Shown piece after piece: positions 5,253 to 11,351 of a stretch of DNA of 54,855 nucleotides; the first letter of the stretch is position 1, and each line of letters begins with the position of its first letter. The notes beneath the pieces are model-generated. The model was not told the DNA's origin and made no database searches. It saw only the letters and a program-made list of their open reading frames with translations. A program made the translations under genes and the position numbers. This DNA is from Candidatus Kurthia intestinigallinarum (lineage in GTDB: Bacteria; Bacillota; Bacilli; Bacillales_A; Planococcaceae): assembly GCF_003991225.1 (NCBI RefSeq), contig NZ_JTFC01000011.1, forward strand, positions 1 through 54,855, read 5' to 3'.

Positions 5253-6650
5253 ATGAATCAACAACGAACACCGCTTTTTGATAAGCTAAAAAACTATGCA
5301 TCAAGTAAAACAACGTTTCATGTACCAGGGCATAAAAATGGTACGGTATTTCCTACATGGGCGCGTACCTACTATCAATCTCTTTTACAAATCGATGCAA
5401 CAGAGATTACTGGAATGGATGATTTGCATGCACCAGAGGAGGCCATTTTAGAAGCACAGCAATTATTGCAAGATCACTATCAATCTCAAAGAAGTTATTT
5501 TCTAGTAAATGGCTCGACTGTAGGAAATTTAACGATGATTTTAACAACACTTCAAGCTGGAGATTTTGTACTTGTCCAGCGCAACTGTCATAAATCGATT
5601 TTAAATGGTCTTGAGTTAGCTGGCGCACACCCTATTTTTCTCGCGCCTTCCTATAACAGCGACTGGCAGCTTGCAACAAGTTTAACAACTAATTGTGTCA
5701 AGCAAGCGTTCAAACAATTCAAGGAAGTAAAAGCGTTGATTTTAACCTATCCAAATTATTATGGACTCGCTCAGCAAAATATTAGGGAGCTCATTGATAC
5801 CGCACATGATTACGGGGCAATTGTTTTAGTAGATGAGGCGCACGGAGCTCATTTTACATTAGATAGCTTTCCAAAGAGTTCTCTTCACTTTGGTGCTGAT
5901 ATAGTTATCCAATCTGCTCATAAAACCTTGCCTGCCATGACAATGGGCTCTTACTTACATATTGGAAGCCAGCGCATAGATTGTGCACGCATTGAACATT
6001 ATCTTCAAATGTTGCAGTCTAGTAGCCCTTCTTATCCGATTATGGGGTCTCTTGATCTTGCTCGGTTTTATTTAGCCACTTATATAGAAGAAACTCCATT
6101 AATACAATCGATAAATCGATTCAAGAAAGCACTCAATTCACTTGAAATGATTCGAGTAGTAGAAGCTCCTGACAACTATTATGTAGATCCTTTAAAGGTA
6201 ACCATTCAATCAACACAGCAAGTAAGTGGCTATACGCTCCAAGCCGCTCTTGAATCGGTTGGTATTTATCCAGAACTTGCAGATCCTTATAATGTGCTAT
6301 TTGTTTTACCTCTCGCTGTTACGGATTATACGGAAATACTTCAAAATATAGCTGTTGCCTTAAAAAATTTAGCAAAAGAAAAACTGCCTACTATACAAAG
6401 TGTTCCTTCTCACACGACAATGCTCGCAATGAGTTATGCAGAGCTACGTAACGCCTCAACTGAATTTATCTCAATAAAAGAAGCGAGTGGACGCATTAGC
6501 GCTGAAATGGTGACGCCATATCCACCAGGAATCCCGCTTATTATGTATGGTGAAAAAATAAGTGATACGCAACTGGAGGCACTTTCAAACTATGAACGAT
6601 TTCATGGTGGTGAAAAACTAGCAGAAGGATTACTACGTGTCATCCAATAA
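5253..6650 (+). CDS. Orn/Lys/Arg decarboxylase-family PLP enzyme (YaaO/SpeA-like)
   Basis: This 465-residue PLP-dependent enzyme belongs to the fold-type-I group of basic amino acid decarboxylases. Diagnostic segments are FHVPGHKNG near residue 22, ITGMDDLHAPEEAI near residue 53, LVNGSTVGN near residue 84, LVDEAHGAHF near residue 192 and SAHKTLPAMT, whose lysine binds PLP. The length matches the short Bacillus forms (YaaO, SpeA about 480-490 residues) rather than the 700-residue E. coli enzymes. The likely reaction is decarboxylation of arginine or lysine for polyamine synthesis, but substrate cannot be assigned by eye. GAGAGGAG precedes the ATG. It is a single-gene unit with its own terminator, convergent with the radical SAM cassette. 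Confidence 0.87.
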   Translation: MNQQRTPLFDKLKNYASSKTTFHVPGHKNGTVFPTWARTYYQSLLQIDATEITGMDDLHAPEEAILEAQQLLQDHYQSQRSYFLVNGSTVGNLTMILTTLQAGDFVLVQRNCHKSILNGLELAGAHPIFLAPSYNSDWQLATSLTTNCVKQAFKQFKEVKALILTYPNYYGLAQQNIRELIDTAHDYGAIVLVDEAHGAHFTLDSFPKSSLHFGADIVIQSAHKTLPAMTMGSYLHIGSQRIDCARIEHYLQMLQSSSPSYPIMGSLDLARFYLATYIEETPLIQSINRFKKALNSLEMIRVVEAPDNYYVDPLKVTIQSTQQVSGYTLQAALESVGIYPELADPYNVLFVLPLAVTDYTEILQNIAVALKNLAKEKLPTIQSVPSHTTMLAMSYAELRNASTEFISIKEASGRISAEMVTPYPPGIPLIMYGEKISDTQLEALSNYERFHGGEKLAEGLLRVIQ

Positions 6651-6651
6651 A

Positions 6652-6685
6652 AAATGAGCCACACAATCATGCGTGGCTCATTTTT
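6652..6685. terminator. Bidirectional terminator
   Basis: ATGAGCCAC pairs with GTGGCTCAT around a short loop, with A- and T-rich flanks. It ends both the decarboxylase gene and, on the minus strand, the radical SAM cassette just after the small peptide gene. Confidence 0.88.
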
Positions 6686-6688
6686 ATA

Positions 6689-6775
6689 TTAGTTTAAGTT
6701 ACCTGGTACAGTCTTCATGATGCGACCCGAGTTTACTTTCTTCACGGGTGTAGTTGCTGGTCGTAATACACGCAT
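6689..6775 (-). CDS. 28-residue peptide, candidate RiPP precursor
   Basis: This short open frame starts with ATG behind an exceptionally strong site, AAGGGAGGTGACAAT, and stops just before the cassette terminator. The peptide begins MRVLRPATTPVKK, continues VNSGRIMK and ends TVPGNLN; it has no cysteine, is basic, and has no signal peptide or membrane helix. It starts 30 bases after the stop of the radical SAM/SPASM gene on the same strand. Position, ribosome site and size suggest that it is the substrate of that enzyme. The identity as a RiPP precursor is inference; no known family (streptide, SCIFF, epipeptide, mycofactocin) is recognisable. A free signalling peptide is an alternative. Confidence 0.62.
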   Translation of the reverse strand: MRVLRPATTPVKKVNSGRIMKTVPGNLN

Positions 6776-6805
6776 ATTGTCACCTCCCTTCAAAGAATCA
6801 TTAGA

Positions 6806-8131
6806 TTACACTTCTTGTAAGCTGTTTTTCCATACAAGATTCAATACTTTTTTAATATTCTTCTTCTCTGAAGGACATGGACGTTCTCCGGATACAACAC
6901 GGTACCATGGGCAGTGATTGCCCTGACAAGCTGGGCGGAAGAAGCACGACTGACAAACCGTATCTGTTTCTTCTCCTGACAATAACCATGAAGCGATTTT
7001 ATCGTAATCTAAATCCATCGTACCATCTGCATTAATATGCCCAACTTTATTCACTTCTTCGTCAAGCACTGTCGTACATTTATAAAGTTGACCGTCTGAG
7101 CCGATTACCATTGCATTAGGCTTTGCAGCGTAGCATACAGCAGCTGTTGGATTCAGTGCACCTTCAACCATATTACTCATCGCAAGCCCTTTATCGATTG
7201 CTGTTTCTGTAAATTCCCAGATTTTTTTATTCGCTGTAATATGTGTGCATGTTGGAATTTCCTCATCGTTTGGACCACCCCAGCGCCCTACTGGACGGAA
7301 GAATACACCAAAACGTTTATCCTCTGCAAAATGTTCTTTTAAGAAGTCGATTAAATGTTCTGTTTCACGTAAATTGTCTTCGTCAAAGTTGATGCGGATT
7401 GTCATATTGAAGTCACCTTCAACATCACGTAATGTTTTTAAGTTATCTACAATTCGCTCAAATGAGCCTTGGCCCCCAATCATATGACGACGTGCATCAT
7501 GGACTGCTTGCACACCATCGATTGTCACCATATATTGAGAGACATTCCATGATAATAGCTTTTCAAATGTTTCACGATTTAAGAAGTAACCATTCGTTAC
7601 GACATCTGCGGAATAATTAATATTATTATCCGCCGCAATCGTCATATATTCTTTAGAAAGCTCTTCGATGATACCAAGCTCAAGCAATGGCTCACCACCA
7701 AACCAGCTAATGTGTAAATCATTCAATGTTCCTGCACGCTCAGCTACTAATGCTTTAACGCCTGCTTTTGTTTCATCTGTCATACGCCCTTTTGCAAAAG
7801 ACTCATAACAGTAGCGGCAGCGGAAATTACATTGCTCCGTTGTCATTAAAATTAAGTGCAACATATCGGTACGGTGCATCGATTGGTGTAATAAATCGGC
7901 ACGTTGCATTTCATTTACCGTATCCTTGACGATAAAGCCACTCTCAAATAGCGCTTGCTTTACTTCTGTATCAAGTGCTGTCGAGCCTTGGCGTTTCAGT
8001 GCTGTCATGACTTCCTCGCGTTCGCCTGCTTCGAAGTTCACAATAGCGCCTGTATAGCTGTTATAAACAACTAACCCGCCGTCCTCTGTTTTTGTTAATG
8101 CGTTAAATTTTGATGGTATGTATGTCACCAT
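6806..8131 (-). CDS. Radical SAM/SPASM peptide maturase
   Basis: This 441-residue enzyme shows three regions. Residues 1-90 (FNALTKTEDGGLVVYNSYTG onward) look like the PqqD-type recognition region at the front of many peptide maturases. The radical SAM core starts at CNFRCRYC (C101, C105, C108), which binds the 4Fe-4S cluster, and includes SWFGGEPLL near residue 142. The SPASM domain carries C333, C352 (spacing GX4C), C393, C396, C402, C407 and C419, enough for two auxiliary clusters. Such enzymes modify backbone or side chains of ribosomally made peptides. GAGGGGGAA lies about 9 bases before the ATG. Candidate substrates are the 28-residue peptide downstream and the 46-residue protein upstream. 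An anaerobic sulfatase-maturase relative is less likely because no sulfatase is nearby. Confidence 0.9.
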   Translation of the reverse strand: MVTYIPSKFNALTKTEDGGLVVYNSYTGAIVNFEAGEREEVMTALKRQGSTALDTEVKQALFESGFIVKDTVNEMQRADLLHQSMHRTDMLHLILMTTEQCNFRCRYCYESFAKGRMTDETKAGVKALVAERAGTLNDLHISWFGGEPLLELGIIEELSKEYMTIAADNNINYSADVVTNGYFLNRETFEKLLSWNVSQYMVTIDGVQAVHDARRHMIGGQGSFERIVDNLKTLRDVEGDFNMTIRINFDEDNLRETEHLIDFLKEHFAEDKRFGVFFRPVGRWGGPNDEEIPTCTHITANKKIWEFTETAIDKGLAMSNMVEGALNPTAAVCYAAKPNAMVIGSDGQLYKCTTVLDEEVNKVGHINADGTMDLDYDKIASWLLSGEETDTVCQSCFFRPACQGNHCPWYRVVSGERPCPSEKKNIKKVLNLVWKNSLQEV

Positions 8132-8204
8132 TCTGATTCCCCCTCATTCATTTCACTTTCGCCAATGAAATGATGTTTTTTGGCCTTCTAAACCAACTGG
8201 AGAA

Positions 8205-8250
8205 CATAAAAAATCCACTCATATTTTCATTGCTAAATAAGAGTGGATTG
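8205..8250 (-). terminator. Terminator-like hairpin between the small protein and the radical SAM gene
   Basis: On the minus strand AATCCACTC and GAGTGGATT pair across a 20-base loop and are followed at once by TTTTT. It would reduce read-through from the small gene into the maturase gene, giving more small-protein mRNA than enzyme mRNA. Confidence 0.65.
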
Positions 8251-8393
8251 TAGAAATAATCGATTGAATTTGAATGGATGGCTTTTTGCCTGAACAAACG
8301 CGGTGCATACAATCCTAAATGGGACAGATTTTGTCTATGACAAAGAACCGTGCAATTAGCGATAAATGCTGCGCTAGATTCACTTCAATTAGA

Positions 8394-8534
8394 CTATTTC
8401 CATTCAGTTGTTGTAGGTGGCTTAGAAGTAATATCTTCTTGTACACGCATTGCTCGTTCAACTTCTCCTGAAATACGTGTCATGACAAATTCAATTTTAT
8501 CGAACATGATTTTATTGATTGTATCATTTCGCAT
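8394..8534 (-). CDS. 46-residue small protein upstream of the maturase
   Basis: This short frame begins MRNDTINKIMFDKIEFVMTR, continues with an amphipathic helix-like part containing ISGEVERAMRVQED, and ends KPPTTTEWK. GTGAGGG lies about 8 bases before the ATG. It follows a strong promoter (8635-8663) by about 100 bases and precedes a terminator-like hairpin and then the radical SAM gene. The charged helical front and short Pro/Thr/Trp tail fit the leader-plus-core plan of a RiPP precursor, but this is inference. It could equally be an unrelated small regulatory protein. I do not recognise a family. Confidence 0.5.
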   Translation of the reverse strand: MRNDTINKIMFDKIEFVMTRISGEVERAMRVQEDITSKPPTTTEWK

Positions 8535-8591
8535 GCCTTTTCCCTCACAACTGTTTAGAATCTAATTGGTCGTACATTTCCGTTTATTACG

Positions 8592-8627
8592 AAGATGCTA
8601 TGCACAAATGCGTACACCCTTCGTAGA
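8592..8627 (-). promoter_or_regulatory. 5' leader hairpin of the small-protein transcript
   Basis: TACGAAG pairs with CTTCGTA, with further partial pairing inside (TGTACGC with GTGCATA). It lies between the promoter start site and the 46-residue frame, at the very 5' end of the predicted RNA. Role unknown: an RNA stabiliser or a regulatory leader. Confidence 0.45.
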
Positions 8628-8634
8628 TGAATTA

Positions 8635-8663
8635 AGTGTATCGGTCTTAGTACTAGGTGTCAA
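8635..8663 (-). promoter_or_regulatory. Sigma-A promoter of the radical SAM cassette
   Basis: TTGACA (8663-8658) and TACACT (8640-8635) are 17 bases apart on the minus strand. The -35 overlaps the last codons of the yheO-like gene, so the cassette has its own start but could also receive read-through. Confidence 0.72.
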
Positions 8664-9319
8664 TGCGTTTTTTTTATTTCCTGAATGTATTTATAAATAC
8701 TAACCTCCGACATTTGAAATGCTTGTGCAACTTTGACAATTGCATCTTTTAATTCAAAAAAGCCTCTATCATGTAATACCTCAACTATTTTGATTTTTTC
8801 CTGTTTCAATAACGGCTCATTCTGTAAATTGCGCCCATTCGTCAATTGTTGAATTGTATCTTCTACCACATGATCTGCATTCAAATAAAAATTTTCGGTA
8901 ATTTCTTGAGGTGGTCGCTTATCCACTTTTTCTCGCTGAATCATCGCAAGTCCCTCAGTCAAAAGTTGCTCAAGTGTTTGTAGCTGTGCGTTATCACGAT
9001 TAATGCAAATCATACCGATCAACTCACCTAATTCATCTTTAATAAAGAAACTAGATGACTCTAGTGTTAAACCACTAGCTGTCATCGTCTGATAATTTGT
9101 AATGAAATCCTGCTGCTCATACCCTTTTTCACGTAAGATTTTAATTAAAAAATCTGTCGCTGGAGCACCGATTTCACGACCCGATAAATTATTTTTAATA
9201 TACACAACCGATGACGTGAGGCCACTACCGATATCCTGTAGTACAATTTCTGAACGTGGCCCGAGTACATGGGATAAAAACTCTAATAAAGGAATGTATT
9301 TTTTTAACTCCGAATTCAT
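8660..9319 (-). CDS. YheO/DauR-like transcriptional regulator
   Basis: This 219-residue cytoplasmic regulator has an N-terminal PAS-like YheO domain (about residues 5-115, with ILQDIGSGLTSSVVYIKNNL-type and GREIGAP segments) and a C-terminal helix-turn-helix of the YheO type (about residues 155-216, AFQMSEVSIYKYIQEIKK). Family members such as DauR control D-amino acid or other nitrogen catabolism. It is the last gene of a three-gene operon, 10 bases after the PLP enzyme, and probably regulates the operon. The signal it senses is unknown. There is no clear terminator after it; the next promoter overlaps its end. Confidence 0.85.
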   Translation of the reverse strand: MNSELKKYIPLLEFLSHVLGPRSEIVLQDIGSGLTSSVVYIKNNLSGREIGAPATDFLIKILREKGYEQQDFITNYQTMTASGLTLESSSFFIKDELGELIGMICINRDNAQLQTLEQLLTEGLAMIQREKVDKRPPQEITENFYLNADHVVEDTIQQLTNGRNLQNEPLLKQEKIKIVEVLHDRGFFELKDAIVKVAQAFQMSEVSIYKYIQEIKKTH

Positions 9320-9329
9320 TTGCTCACCT

Positions 9330-10466
9330 CTATTGTAATGCCTGGGCTAAGTCTTCGAGTAAATCTTCAATATCTTCAATGCCACAAGATAGACGTAATA
9401 GTTCATCACAAATTCCTTGATTTAAACGTTCATGCGCAGGTAAGCAAGCATGGGACATTGTGGCAGGGTGTGATAAAATCGATTCCACGCCACCAAGACT
9501 CACTGCTAAAATCGGTAGCTGAATACGTTCTGTAAAACGAATTAAATCCTCTTTTGTATGTAGCTCAAACGATAAAACAGCCCCACCATTTTGTGCCTGC
9601 TTCATGTGAATAGCCTGTCCTTTATGATGCGCTAATGTTGGATAATAAACCTGCTTCACCTGTGGATGCTGTACTAAAAACTGCGCAATCTTTTCAGCAT
9701 TTTCAATCGAACGCTCCATTCGAAGCCCCATCGTTTTCATACCTCGTAATACGAGCCATGCATCCTCTACGCCTAAAATAGCTCCAAAGTTTTTTTGGTA
9801 CAGCTTTAATTTCTCGTACAGCACTTCATCATTCGTTGCCGCAAGCCCTGCCACTACATCACTATGACCATTAATAAATTTCGTCACGCTCTCAACGACA
9901 ATATCTACGCCGTACCCAAGTGGCGATTGGTAAAGCGCCGTCATGAATGTATTATCCGCTGCTGTTAAAATCTCATGCTTTTTCGCCAGTGCCACAATTG
10001 CTTCGATATCACTGATTTTCAGCAATGGATTCGATGGTGTTTCTAAATACAGCATCGCCGTATTGGGCTGAATTGCCGCCTCGACTGCGTGAAGATCCGC
10101 AAAATCAACAAAAGTCGTTTCAATATGAAAATTCGGCAATACTTCATTTACAAATTGGCAAGTGCCGCCATATACTTCAGTCGGTAAAATAATATGCTCA
10201 CCAGCCTTTACAAGCATTAACACATTCGAAATCGCTGCCATGCCTGATGAATAAGCGAGTGCATAGCGCGCATTTTCAAACGATGCTAGCGCCTCTTCTA
10301 GTGCATGAACAGTCGGATTACCAAAGCGTGTGTACGAGAATTGCTGTGAATCGTCATAAAGCTTTTGCTGATGAAACGTCGATGTTTGGTATTTTGGAAT
10401 GGATGACGCGCCTGTGTATGCATCAATTACCGGATAGTCATGTAATAATTTTGTGTTTGTTTTCAT
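9330..10466 (-). CDS. Trans-sulfuration PLP enzyme (cystathionine gamma-synthase/lyase family)
   Basis: This 378-residue enzyme belongs to the Cys/Met metabolism PLP family. Visible landmarks are the YTRFGNPT block near residue 45, AYSSGMAAISNVL near residue 71, LYLETPSNPLLK near residue 140, AADNTF near residue 169 and the PLP lysine K196 in ESVTKFINGHSDVVAG. The C-terminal LPILAVSLGGVESILSHPA block is also typical. The reaction could be cystathionine gamma-synthase, cystathionine lyase or methionine gamma-lyase activity; these cannot be separated by eye. It overlaps the upstream amidotransferase gene by 4 bases (ATGA), showing translational coupling. The pairing with a class-I amidotransferase and a YheO regulator suggests catabolism of a sulfur or gamma-glutamyl compound rather than standard methionine synthesis. 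Confidence 0.88.
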   Translation of the reverse strand: MKTNTKLLHDYPVIDAYTGASSIPKYQTSTFHQQKLYDDSQQFSYTRFGNPTVHALEEALASFENARYALAYSSGMAAISNVLMLVKAGEHIILPTEVYGGTCQFVNEVLPNFHIETTFVDFADLHAVEAAIQPNTAMLYLETPSNPLLKISDIEAIVALAKKHEILTAADNTFMTALYQSPLGYGVDIVVESVTKFINGHSDVVAGLAATNDEVLYEKLKLYQKNFGAILGVEDAWLVLRGMKTMGLRMERSIENAEKIAQFLVQHPQVKQVYYPTLAHHKGQAIHMKQAQNGGAVLSFELHTKEDLIRFTERIQLPILAVSLGGVESILSHPATMSHACLPAHERLNQGICDELLRLSCGIEDIEDLLEDLAQALQ

Positions 10467-11212
10467 TTAGATTCCTCCGCCCCTCTAGCATTGTCAATAA
10501 GTTGTTGGAATAGGCGATTCATTAGCGGCTCACTTTTATGAAGCATTTCTGGATGCCACTGAATGCCTAGAAGAAATGGATAGCTCGCATGTTCAATTGC
10601 CTCAATGGCTCCGTCTGCTGCAGTTGCGCTAATGACGAACTCTCTAGCCGGGTGCTTAATTAATTGGTGATGAAATGAATTCACACGTAGCGTCTTCTCT
10701 TGTAAAATTTCTTGTAATATCGTTCCTTCTTCAATCGTCACCGTATGGGTCACAAGCTCTGGATTATGGCCCTGCATATGCTTAATCGTCGTATTTTCAC
10801 GATGCGCTAAATCCTGCCACAAGCTGCCACCGTGGCACACATTAATGACCTGTGCCCCGCGACAAATACCTAAAATCGGAATGCCTTTCTTTTTCGCAAG
10901 CTCGATTAATGTAAATTCAAATCGGTCGCGTGCTGGATAAATGTCACCAAGCGCAAGCTCTGGCTCCTCATCATAAAACTGCGGACTAACATCATGACCA
11001 CCAGATAAAATCAGCGCATCAATCGTGTCGATATAATTTGCAATGACCGTTTCATCCTCTACAACCGGTAAAATAAACGGCGCACCCCCGTTTTGCACGA
11101 CCGCATGAATATAATCCTCATTTACATAACTTCTACGATACCCTGGAAATAGCCCACCTTGATCAATAATGACACTGCCTGACACACCAATAACCGGTAA
11201 TTTCTTTTTCAA
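10463..11212 (-). CDS. Peptidase C26 / gamma-glutamyl hydrolase-like class I amidotransferase
   Basis: About 249 residues with a glutamine amidotransferase fold: nucleophile cysteine in LGICRGAQVINV, catalytic His-Glu in GIQWHPEM, and the ILSGGHDVSP glycine-rich loop. Members (PuuD-like) hydrolyse gamma-glutamyl amides such as gamma-glutamyl-GABA. The TTG at 11212 is preferred because AAGAGGTG lies 6 bases upstream; GTG codons at 11215 and 11221 overlap or crowd that site. It is the first gene of the operon with the PLP enzyme and YheO regulator. The natural substrate is unknown. The upstream 11213-11350 stretch holds no gene. Confidence 0.85.
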   Translation of the reverse strand: MKKKLPVIGVSGSVIIDQGGLFPGYRRSYVNEDYIHAVVQNGGAPFILPVVEDETVIANYIDTIDALILSGGHDVSPQFYDEEPELALGDIYPARDRFEFTLIELAKKKGIPILGICRGAQVINVCHGGSLWQDLAHRENTTIKHMQGHNPELVTHTVTIEEGTILQEILQEKTLRVNSFHHQLIKHPAREFVISATAADGAIEAIEHASYPFLLGIQWHPEMLHKSEPLMNRLFQQLIDNARGAEESK

Positions 11213-11351
11213 CACACTCACCTCTTATAATTTTTTATAAGTAATTTATAAATAATTATAAAGAAAAGACGTAAAAAGTTAATGAGGCGATGACATTTAG
11301 TTTTAAAATAAGATTAGGGTTCAAAATAGCTATATACCGTTTTAAAGCATT

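Follow-up and report, generated by a model that had tools for sequence, protein, structure and literature searches.

A radical SAM/SPASM enzyme and a conserved 28-residue peptide as a candidate RiPP-type pair in Kurthia and other genera

The window analysed here is the whole 54,855-nucleotide contig NZ_JTFC01000011.1 of Candidatus Kurthia intestinigallinarum, whose nearest relatives, judged by comparison of the enzyme described below, are Kurthia genomes. At the locus under study, a gene for a radical SAM/SPASM enzyme is directly followed by a frame for a 28-residue peptide and preceded by a 46-residue frame and, farther upstream, by guaA (Table 1). The enzyme frame and the 28-residue frame behind its ribosome-binding site, both described in a first-pass annotation of this DNA, were found again. 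The enzyme is 96% identical to its counterpart in K. huakuii and 92% identical to those in K. massiliensis and K. gibsonii; a search of its own genome with the enzyme gave one match at E 0.001.

Table 1. Features of the locus, with positions in the window.
Feature	Position	Strand	Basis
Convergent decarboxylase-like gene	5253..6650	+	Common to Kurthia and Rummeliibacillus only
Terminator-like hairpin and T run behind the 28-residue peptide, shared with the convergent gene	6655..6680	.	Sequence
28-residue peptide MRVLRPATTPVKKVNSGRIMKTVPGNLN, proposed precursor/substrate	6689..6775 (stop included)	-	Locus conservation, own profile, codon changes
Ribosome-binding site AAGGGAGGTGACAAT of the 28-residue peptide, directly 5′ of the ATG	6776..6790	-	Sequence
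Radical SAM/SPASM enzyme, 441 residues	6806..8131	-	Pfam, NCBIfam, model and Foldseek, Cys columns
Hairpin followed by a T run between the 46-residue frame and the enzyme gene; terminator or attenuator	8212..8249	-	Fold
46-residue frame, a duplicate of the guaA 3′ end	8394..8534	-	Pfam, NCBIfam, base alignment
guaA	11393..12946	-	3′ end aligns with the 46-residue frame

A single promoter at 8635-8663 had been proposed to lead into all genes of the unit. The site matches a promoter at 10 of 12 positions, but the region contains 7 promoter-like sites against a mean of 7.6 in shuffled sequences, which leaves the proposal unsupported. The two terminator-like hairpins can both be seen, each with a run of T, whereas a strict terminator scan of the region returned no sites and listed neither, so that they rest on reading and folding. 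RNA folding of 8110-8400 predicts the upstream hairpin (the z score of -4.26 refers to the whole 291 bases), and inverted repeats with changed letters were seen by eye at the position of the downstream one in four aligned Kurthia sequences. The hairpin ahead of the enzyme gene speaks for two transcription units or for attenuation.

Pfam yields only general domains for the enzyme (Radical_SAM, 4.2e-17), and it matches PHROG 1802 (radical SAM) with 2.2e-35. As to the PqqD-like front region ascribed to it, no PqqD model is among its Pfam matches. An AlphaFold model (mean pLDDT 69.1, pTM 0.64) was obtained from 11 of 13 alignment rows, two rows from the genome search having been left out. In this model the N-terminus forms strands and then helices, in the order of an RRE, at pLDDT 52-87, and residues ~1-85 are predicted to be an RRE-like region. 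The full auxiliary Cys set noted earlier was confirmed: the CxxxCxxC motif (C101/C105/C108) and seven SPASM cysteines (C333, C352, C393, C396, C402, C407 and C419) are invariant in all 17 enzymes that come with a 28-residue peptide. The only invariant Cys outside both cluster motifs is C295, which is also found in 9 of 12 sister enzymes.

Membership in a family with a different known substrate was not indicated by NCBIfam, where 76 models match at E up to 1 and none of the best 25 of these reaches its cut-off. The best, TIGR04463 (rSAM_vs_C_rich), matches residues 9-430 and scores 225.5 bits where its cut-off demands 525; its name tells of Cys-rich targets, and a plasmid member adjoins a gene for a peptide with Cys at every fifth position, whereas the window peptide is Cys-free. 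The Clo7bot maturase CtpM (TIGR04334) likewise shows a full-length profile match and short peptides beside its gene, but the score is 192.9 bits against 600, its annotated targets are Cys-rich and an ABC transporter gene lies nearby. Scores for TIGR04280 (166.4 bits, cut-off 400) and the CefB model (161 bits, cut-off 600) are lower still. Among solved structures the closest relative by both profile and fold is CteB, the SCIFF thioether maturase (PDB 5WGG/5WHY), which comes first in a sequence-profile search of the PDB (9.7e-23) and first in Foldseek (TM 0.54, rmsd 12.2), ahead of TigE in second place and EpeE at rank 27. CteB and the window enzyme appear to share an RRE, radical SAM and SPASM build, the first part being only RRE-like in our model; the substrate chemistry of CteB, however, needs Cys, and the window peptide has none.

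The peptide lies directly downstream of the enzyme gene in all 13 loci read, which were found through the enzyme (four in Kurthia including the window, three each in Rummeliibacillus and Proteiniclasticum, and one each in a Clostridia MAG, Evansella and genome G072); L002-L004 and L006, being the same places as L008-L011, are not among them. A profile built from 11 peptides was searched without the enzyme. It matched 8 of 261 genomes of the order (four from Kurthia, three from g17, the genus of Rummeliibacillus, and a weak one), with E-values down to 9.1e-19 per genome; the weak match (L031, E 0.006) has no enzyme nearby and was set aside. In the class, 12 of 398 genomes from nine genera were matched, two of which (the window and G072) had already contributed to the profile, and at all 12 places the enzyme gene lies upstream on the same strand. 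In G725 it is split over two overlapping frames (L055/L102), by either assembly error or decay. The small frame is thus conserved beside homologous enzymes, as the first-pass annotation had proposed to check.

Conversely, an enzyme search at 1e-60 retrieved 24 places in 20 of 358 class genomes, and the profile found the peptide at 10 of these: nine with enzymes of at least 47% identity (window included) and the split G725 gene (43% and 57%). At the 14 places with 30-45% identity the peptide was found nowhere. In 398 genomes of the phylum the window was the only match of the profile, while four Clostridia contigs carry the pair; it follows that the spread is patchy and that the samples miss members. 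Peptide and enzyme distances are correlated (r 0.88, with none of 5000 permutations as high), which could be expected from joint descent alone too. The possibility that the unit is plasmid or virus cargo was rejected, since a plasmid search with the peptide gave no match at E 1, plasmid enzymes (58 records) are all below 60% identity and the 12 viral-contig enzymes are at 25-40%. From these genome searches, we regard the conserved pair of enzyme and 28-residue peptide as real.

Between the window and K. huakuii, the peptide gene differs by 8 synonymous and no amino-acid changes, and judged by its codons the peptide is under purifying selection. Residues M1, P10, K21, P24 and G25 are fixed across 17 peptides; at position 23, 15 peptides have V and 2 have A, at position 26, 14 have N and 3 have S, and positions 19, 20 and 23 are mostly Ile, Leu, Val or Met. 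The N-terminal part is conserved as M-[RK]-[VI]-[LIV]-R-P-A, the stretch 11-16 differs between peptides in both letters and length, and the C-terminal part, G-R-[ILV]-x-K-[ST]-V-P-G-N-L, is nearly invariant around a nearly fixed putative core, K-[STA]-[VA]-P-G-[NS]-[LM]. The window peptide is without Cys, aromatic or acidic residues, and the earlier statement that this excludes thioether chemistry on a peptide Cys holds for it; one of 18 aligned peptides (R. suwonensis) has a single Cys, in the variable linker, and Glu or Tyr occurs in none of the 18. A purine-rich ribosome site was seen by eye before all 23 listed peptides. None of the 18 peptides matches NCBIfam, PHROG gave no match for the 28-residue peptide, and nothing in Rfam exceeded the gathering score, the sole sub-threshold match (isrJ, E 0.88) being taken as chance.

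To compare neighbours, all frames of at least 70 residues from 23 loci with unequal flanks were set against one another, the loci being sorted into 12 groups of our own making (the MAG placed with Proteiniclasticum). More than three groups share only the enzyme, along with antisense frames inside its gene; in these local flanks no transporter or protease is widely common to the 23 loci, in line with the first-pass annotation, which saw none near the genes in the window. Some possible hints to function come from one or two genomes each. In G725 (L055), thiG and a thiH-like radical SAM gene stand directly before the enzyme gene, with 5 bases between, and in G732 (L047) a gene for an FAD oxidoreductase, read as ThiO-like, lies 3′ of the peptide; a thiazole or glycine link is possible, as is chance. 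Nitrate-respiration-like neighbours were seen by eye in G732 and G072.

Two sets of more remote enzymes were considered as members and rejected. In G403 (L019/L035), a 24-residue frame, MEWIQKPDAALDPPQHFDSNCHNC, lies downstream of a 36%-identical enzyme and is contained in a longer frame read in the same phase. The peptide profile gave no match at this locus and none in 72 genomes of the same class, a sample uninformative by itself. Enzymes on Deinococcus plasmids (39% identity) are accompanied by a different small frame without a profile match. In these plasmid loci (L020 and L021), the radical SAM enzyme is found with an oxidoreductase gene and a small frame that looks secreted and contains ESGGAGxPGGG; the oxidoreductase is an MsnO8-type LLM protein in L020, where the unit adjoins lantibiotic dehydratase genes, and is annotated as alkane 1-monooxygenase in L021.

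The enzymes were placed in a tree of 33 rows rooted by midpoint, from which near copies (L012, L017, L005/L033, L040, L042), the split gene (L102) and partial sequences (L104-L106) were left out. All 17 peptide-bearing enzymes fall on one side of a branch with support 100/100. The next group in the tree is Cys-type or unknown (88/86, below the tool's star). Seven residues (E37, M201, W305, K337, H406, Y410 and R417) are invariant in the 17 enzymes and shared by no more than 2 of the 16 other rows, counts that are uncorrected for relatedness; H406, Y410 and R417 are close to the last SPASM cysteines, and the M201 position is Gln, Asn or Thr in other enzymes.

Ten of the 14 more distant enzymes belong to one family (f169). 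Near 11 of the 14, short Cys-containing frames were found, several ending in NCNC. The choice was made by eye among small frames preceded by a ribosome-like site; seven of those chosen are downstream of the enzyme gene and four upstream, and near L097, L101 and L107 two looks by eye found no acceptable Cys frame. Examples are MKLVKKAMKRREAVANTNCNC, MKFVKKANQAVRKINAGNNCNC and MKWIVKAAQERKATGNNNNCNC, the first with one further, near-identical copy next to it and the last present in three near-identical copies. At three Cys-type loci the N-termini look alike by eye (MKLVKKA, MKFVKKA and MKWIVKA). Four distant enzymes and one of family f9 are far below the NCBIfam cut-offs among the matches listed. 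As a separate observation, very short Cys-ended peptides (NCNC, CNNCWC) occur beside the radical SAM enzymes of L098, L099, L100, L108 and L110, as three near-identical tandem peptides in L100; the enzymes of L098, L099 and L108 are far below NCBIfam cut-offs among the matches listed.

A new RiPP-type pair of enzyme and 28-residue peptide is, as far as genome comparison can tell, well supported by the two-way conservation, the selection and the single clade. The best reading of its origin is that the unit branched off, Cys-free, from a RiPP family of Cys type. Most simply, a Cys-type maturase lineage would have given rise to one enzyme with a Cys-free and then nearly frozen peptide; with a root set at the midpoint, this direction is what we infer.

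With a probability of roughly three in four, we propose a minimal two-gene RiPP-type unit in which the RRE-like part holds the N-terminus of the peptide and the radical SAM centre acts on its C-terminal part. The RRE-like N-terminus would hold the peptide by its leader-like M-[RK]-[VI]-[LIV]-R-P-A segment, and the radical SAM centre, together with the two auxiliary [4Fe-4S] clusters of SPASM, would act on G-R-[ILV]-x-K-[ST]-V-P-G-N-L, so that residues 1-10 would be the leader and residues 17-27 the target. The review PMC8326336 states that an RRE binds the leader. The peptide is probably the substrate of the enzyme and hence modified, which we infer along with the leader and core borders and the chemistry; these borders, like the likeness to Cys-type peptides, were judged by eye. 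Against this best explanation stand a core that hardly varies, as is uncommon among RiPP natural products, the mediocre quality of the AlphaFold model and the lack of a linked protease or exporter in the flanks compared. A sequence so nearly fixed, with neither exporter nor protease linked to it, points to a conserved product of housekeeping or signalling and not to a bacteriocin.

As the peptide is Cys-free, the chemistry is probably different from that of the related Cys systems. Given a complete SPASM set, a peptide without Cys, aromatic or acidic residues and no clade-confined donor Cys, we tentatively suggest an oxidative change (minus 2 Da) within K21 to N26, most likely centred on the invariant Lys21. 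TigE (PDB 8VPO), the second Foldseek match, is a cyclopropyl synthase. A GYW motif is associated with cyclopropyl synthases, whereas all 33 enzymes in the tree lack it and Val23 of the peptide is Ala in 2 of 17. Formation of cyclopropylglycine by TvgB is described in PMC9062424.

It is less likely that the enzyme epimerises peptide residues from L to D, as EpeE (PDB 8AI4) does, in a redox-neutral reaction without mass change. EpeE acts on Cys-free peptides and is among the Foldseek matches, and such a reaction would need neither Cys nor an aromatic residue in the peptide, whose positions 19, 20 and 23 are mostly aliphatic. However, the known epimerases treated in PMC8326336 use a critical Cys, and the window enzyme group has no clade-specific donor Cys; the sole candidate, C295, is shared with most sister enzymes, though it could still serve. 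The same review describes the epipeptide as losing a long leader during export, a further difference from the unit here.

We consider it more doubtful again that the peptide is a small partner or regulator and that the enzyme acts on something else. Such a role would be consistent with a C-terminal half as nearly invariant as a binding partner's might be, and with the lack of a processing or export gene common to the loci, but the relatives of the enzyme are peptide maturases, and the short peptides near the distant enzymes differ from one another and are sometimes in tandem, as precursors are.

One or both small products had been offered as the substrate; the 28-residue peptide stands as a member of a conserved pair, and the 46-residue frame does not. 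The latter exists as a frame, but it repeats the end of guaA (57 identical bases in an alignment of 84; Pfam GMP_synt_C, 1.8e-07; TIGR00884, 5e-08). While guaA is present in all 8 Kurthia genomes searched, a similar frame (at least 67%) is found in four, the same four that have enzyme and peptide, and tblastn found it in none of 19 loci of other genera with both. A role as substrate or second substrate is very improbable: the frame does lie upstream of the enzyme in all four Kurthia having the enzyme, and its pN/pS of 0.11 to 0.64 hints at some constraint, more than a free remnant needs and counter to a pure remnant, but in K. gibsonii its end is truncated, and a hairpin stands between it and the enzyme gene. 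It was thus rejected as the precursor, being a guaA-end copy confined to Kurthia among the loci examined, and is not judged part of the peptide system.

The end of guaA serves as an insertion site, and the second guaA 3′ end is likely the mark of an old insertion there. In the window, three extra genes at 8660-11221 (C26 amidotransferase-like, a Cys/Met PLP enzyme and a PAS/HTH regulator) separate guaA from the copy; at this place they are missing from K. huakuii and K. massiliensis, and in K. gibsonii 3.3 kb of different sequence is found. G004, which has no enzyme, carries a different, shorter guaA-end copy on another contig (83% over 30 residues) in an assembly listed with 8% contamination, and in G006 an aggregation-promoting-factor gene follows guaA, and neither a tail copy nor the enzyme or decarboxylase gene lies between the two. 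Least credible of all is that the 28-residue frame, directly ahead of a terminator-like hairpin, is a chance frame kept by a conserved terminator or RNA element, given its protein-level constraint, the ribosome site and start conserved in 23 loci, the strength of its profile matches and the lack of an Rfam match above the gathering score.

In PQQ and mycofactocin systems, a short conserved peptide goes with a radical SAM/SPASM enzyme. The parallel to the proposed two-gene unit would be a Cys-free peptide turned into a cofactor; the Glu/Tyr pair of PqqA is, however, missing from all 18 peptides here, and no further biosynthetic genes are common to the loci. By this analogy the unit might, speculatively, make a peptide-derived cofactor or a widely shared signal through a radical reaction on the Lys-Ser/Thr-Val-Pro-Gly-Asn segment, with Cys-based chemistry left behind. 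We know of no such reaction on this segment from any RiPP, and in the open-licence literature searched, outside which many papers lie, no description of the enzyme-peptide pair was found. One enzyme and one 28-mer make a compact and experimentally simple pair, and a single clade standing beside enzymes with Cys-type peptides lets one see, by natural comparison, how the chemistry of a radical SAM peptide maturase may change.
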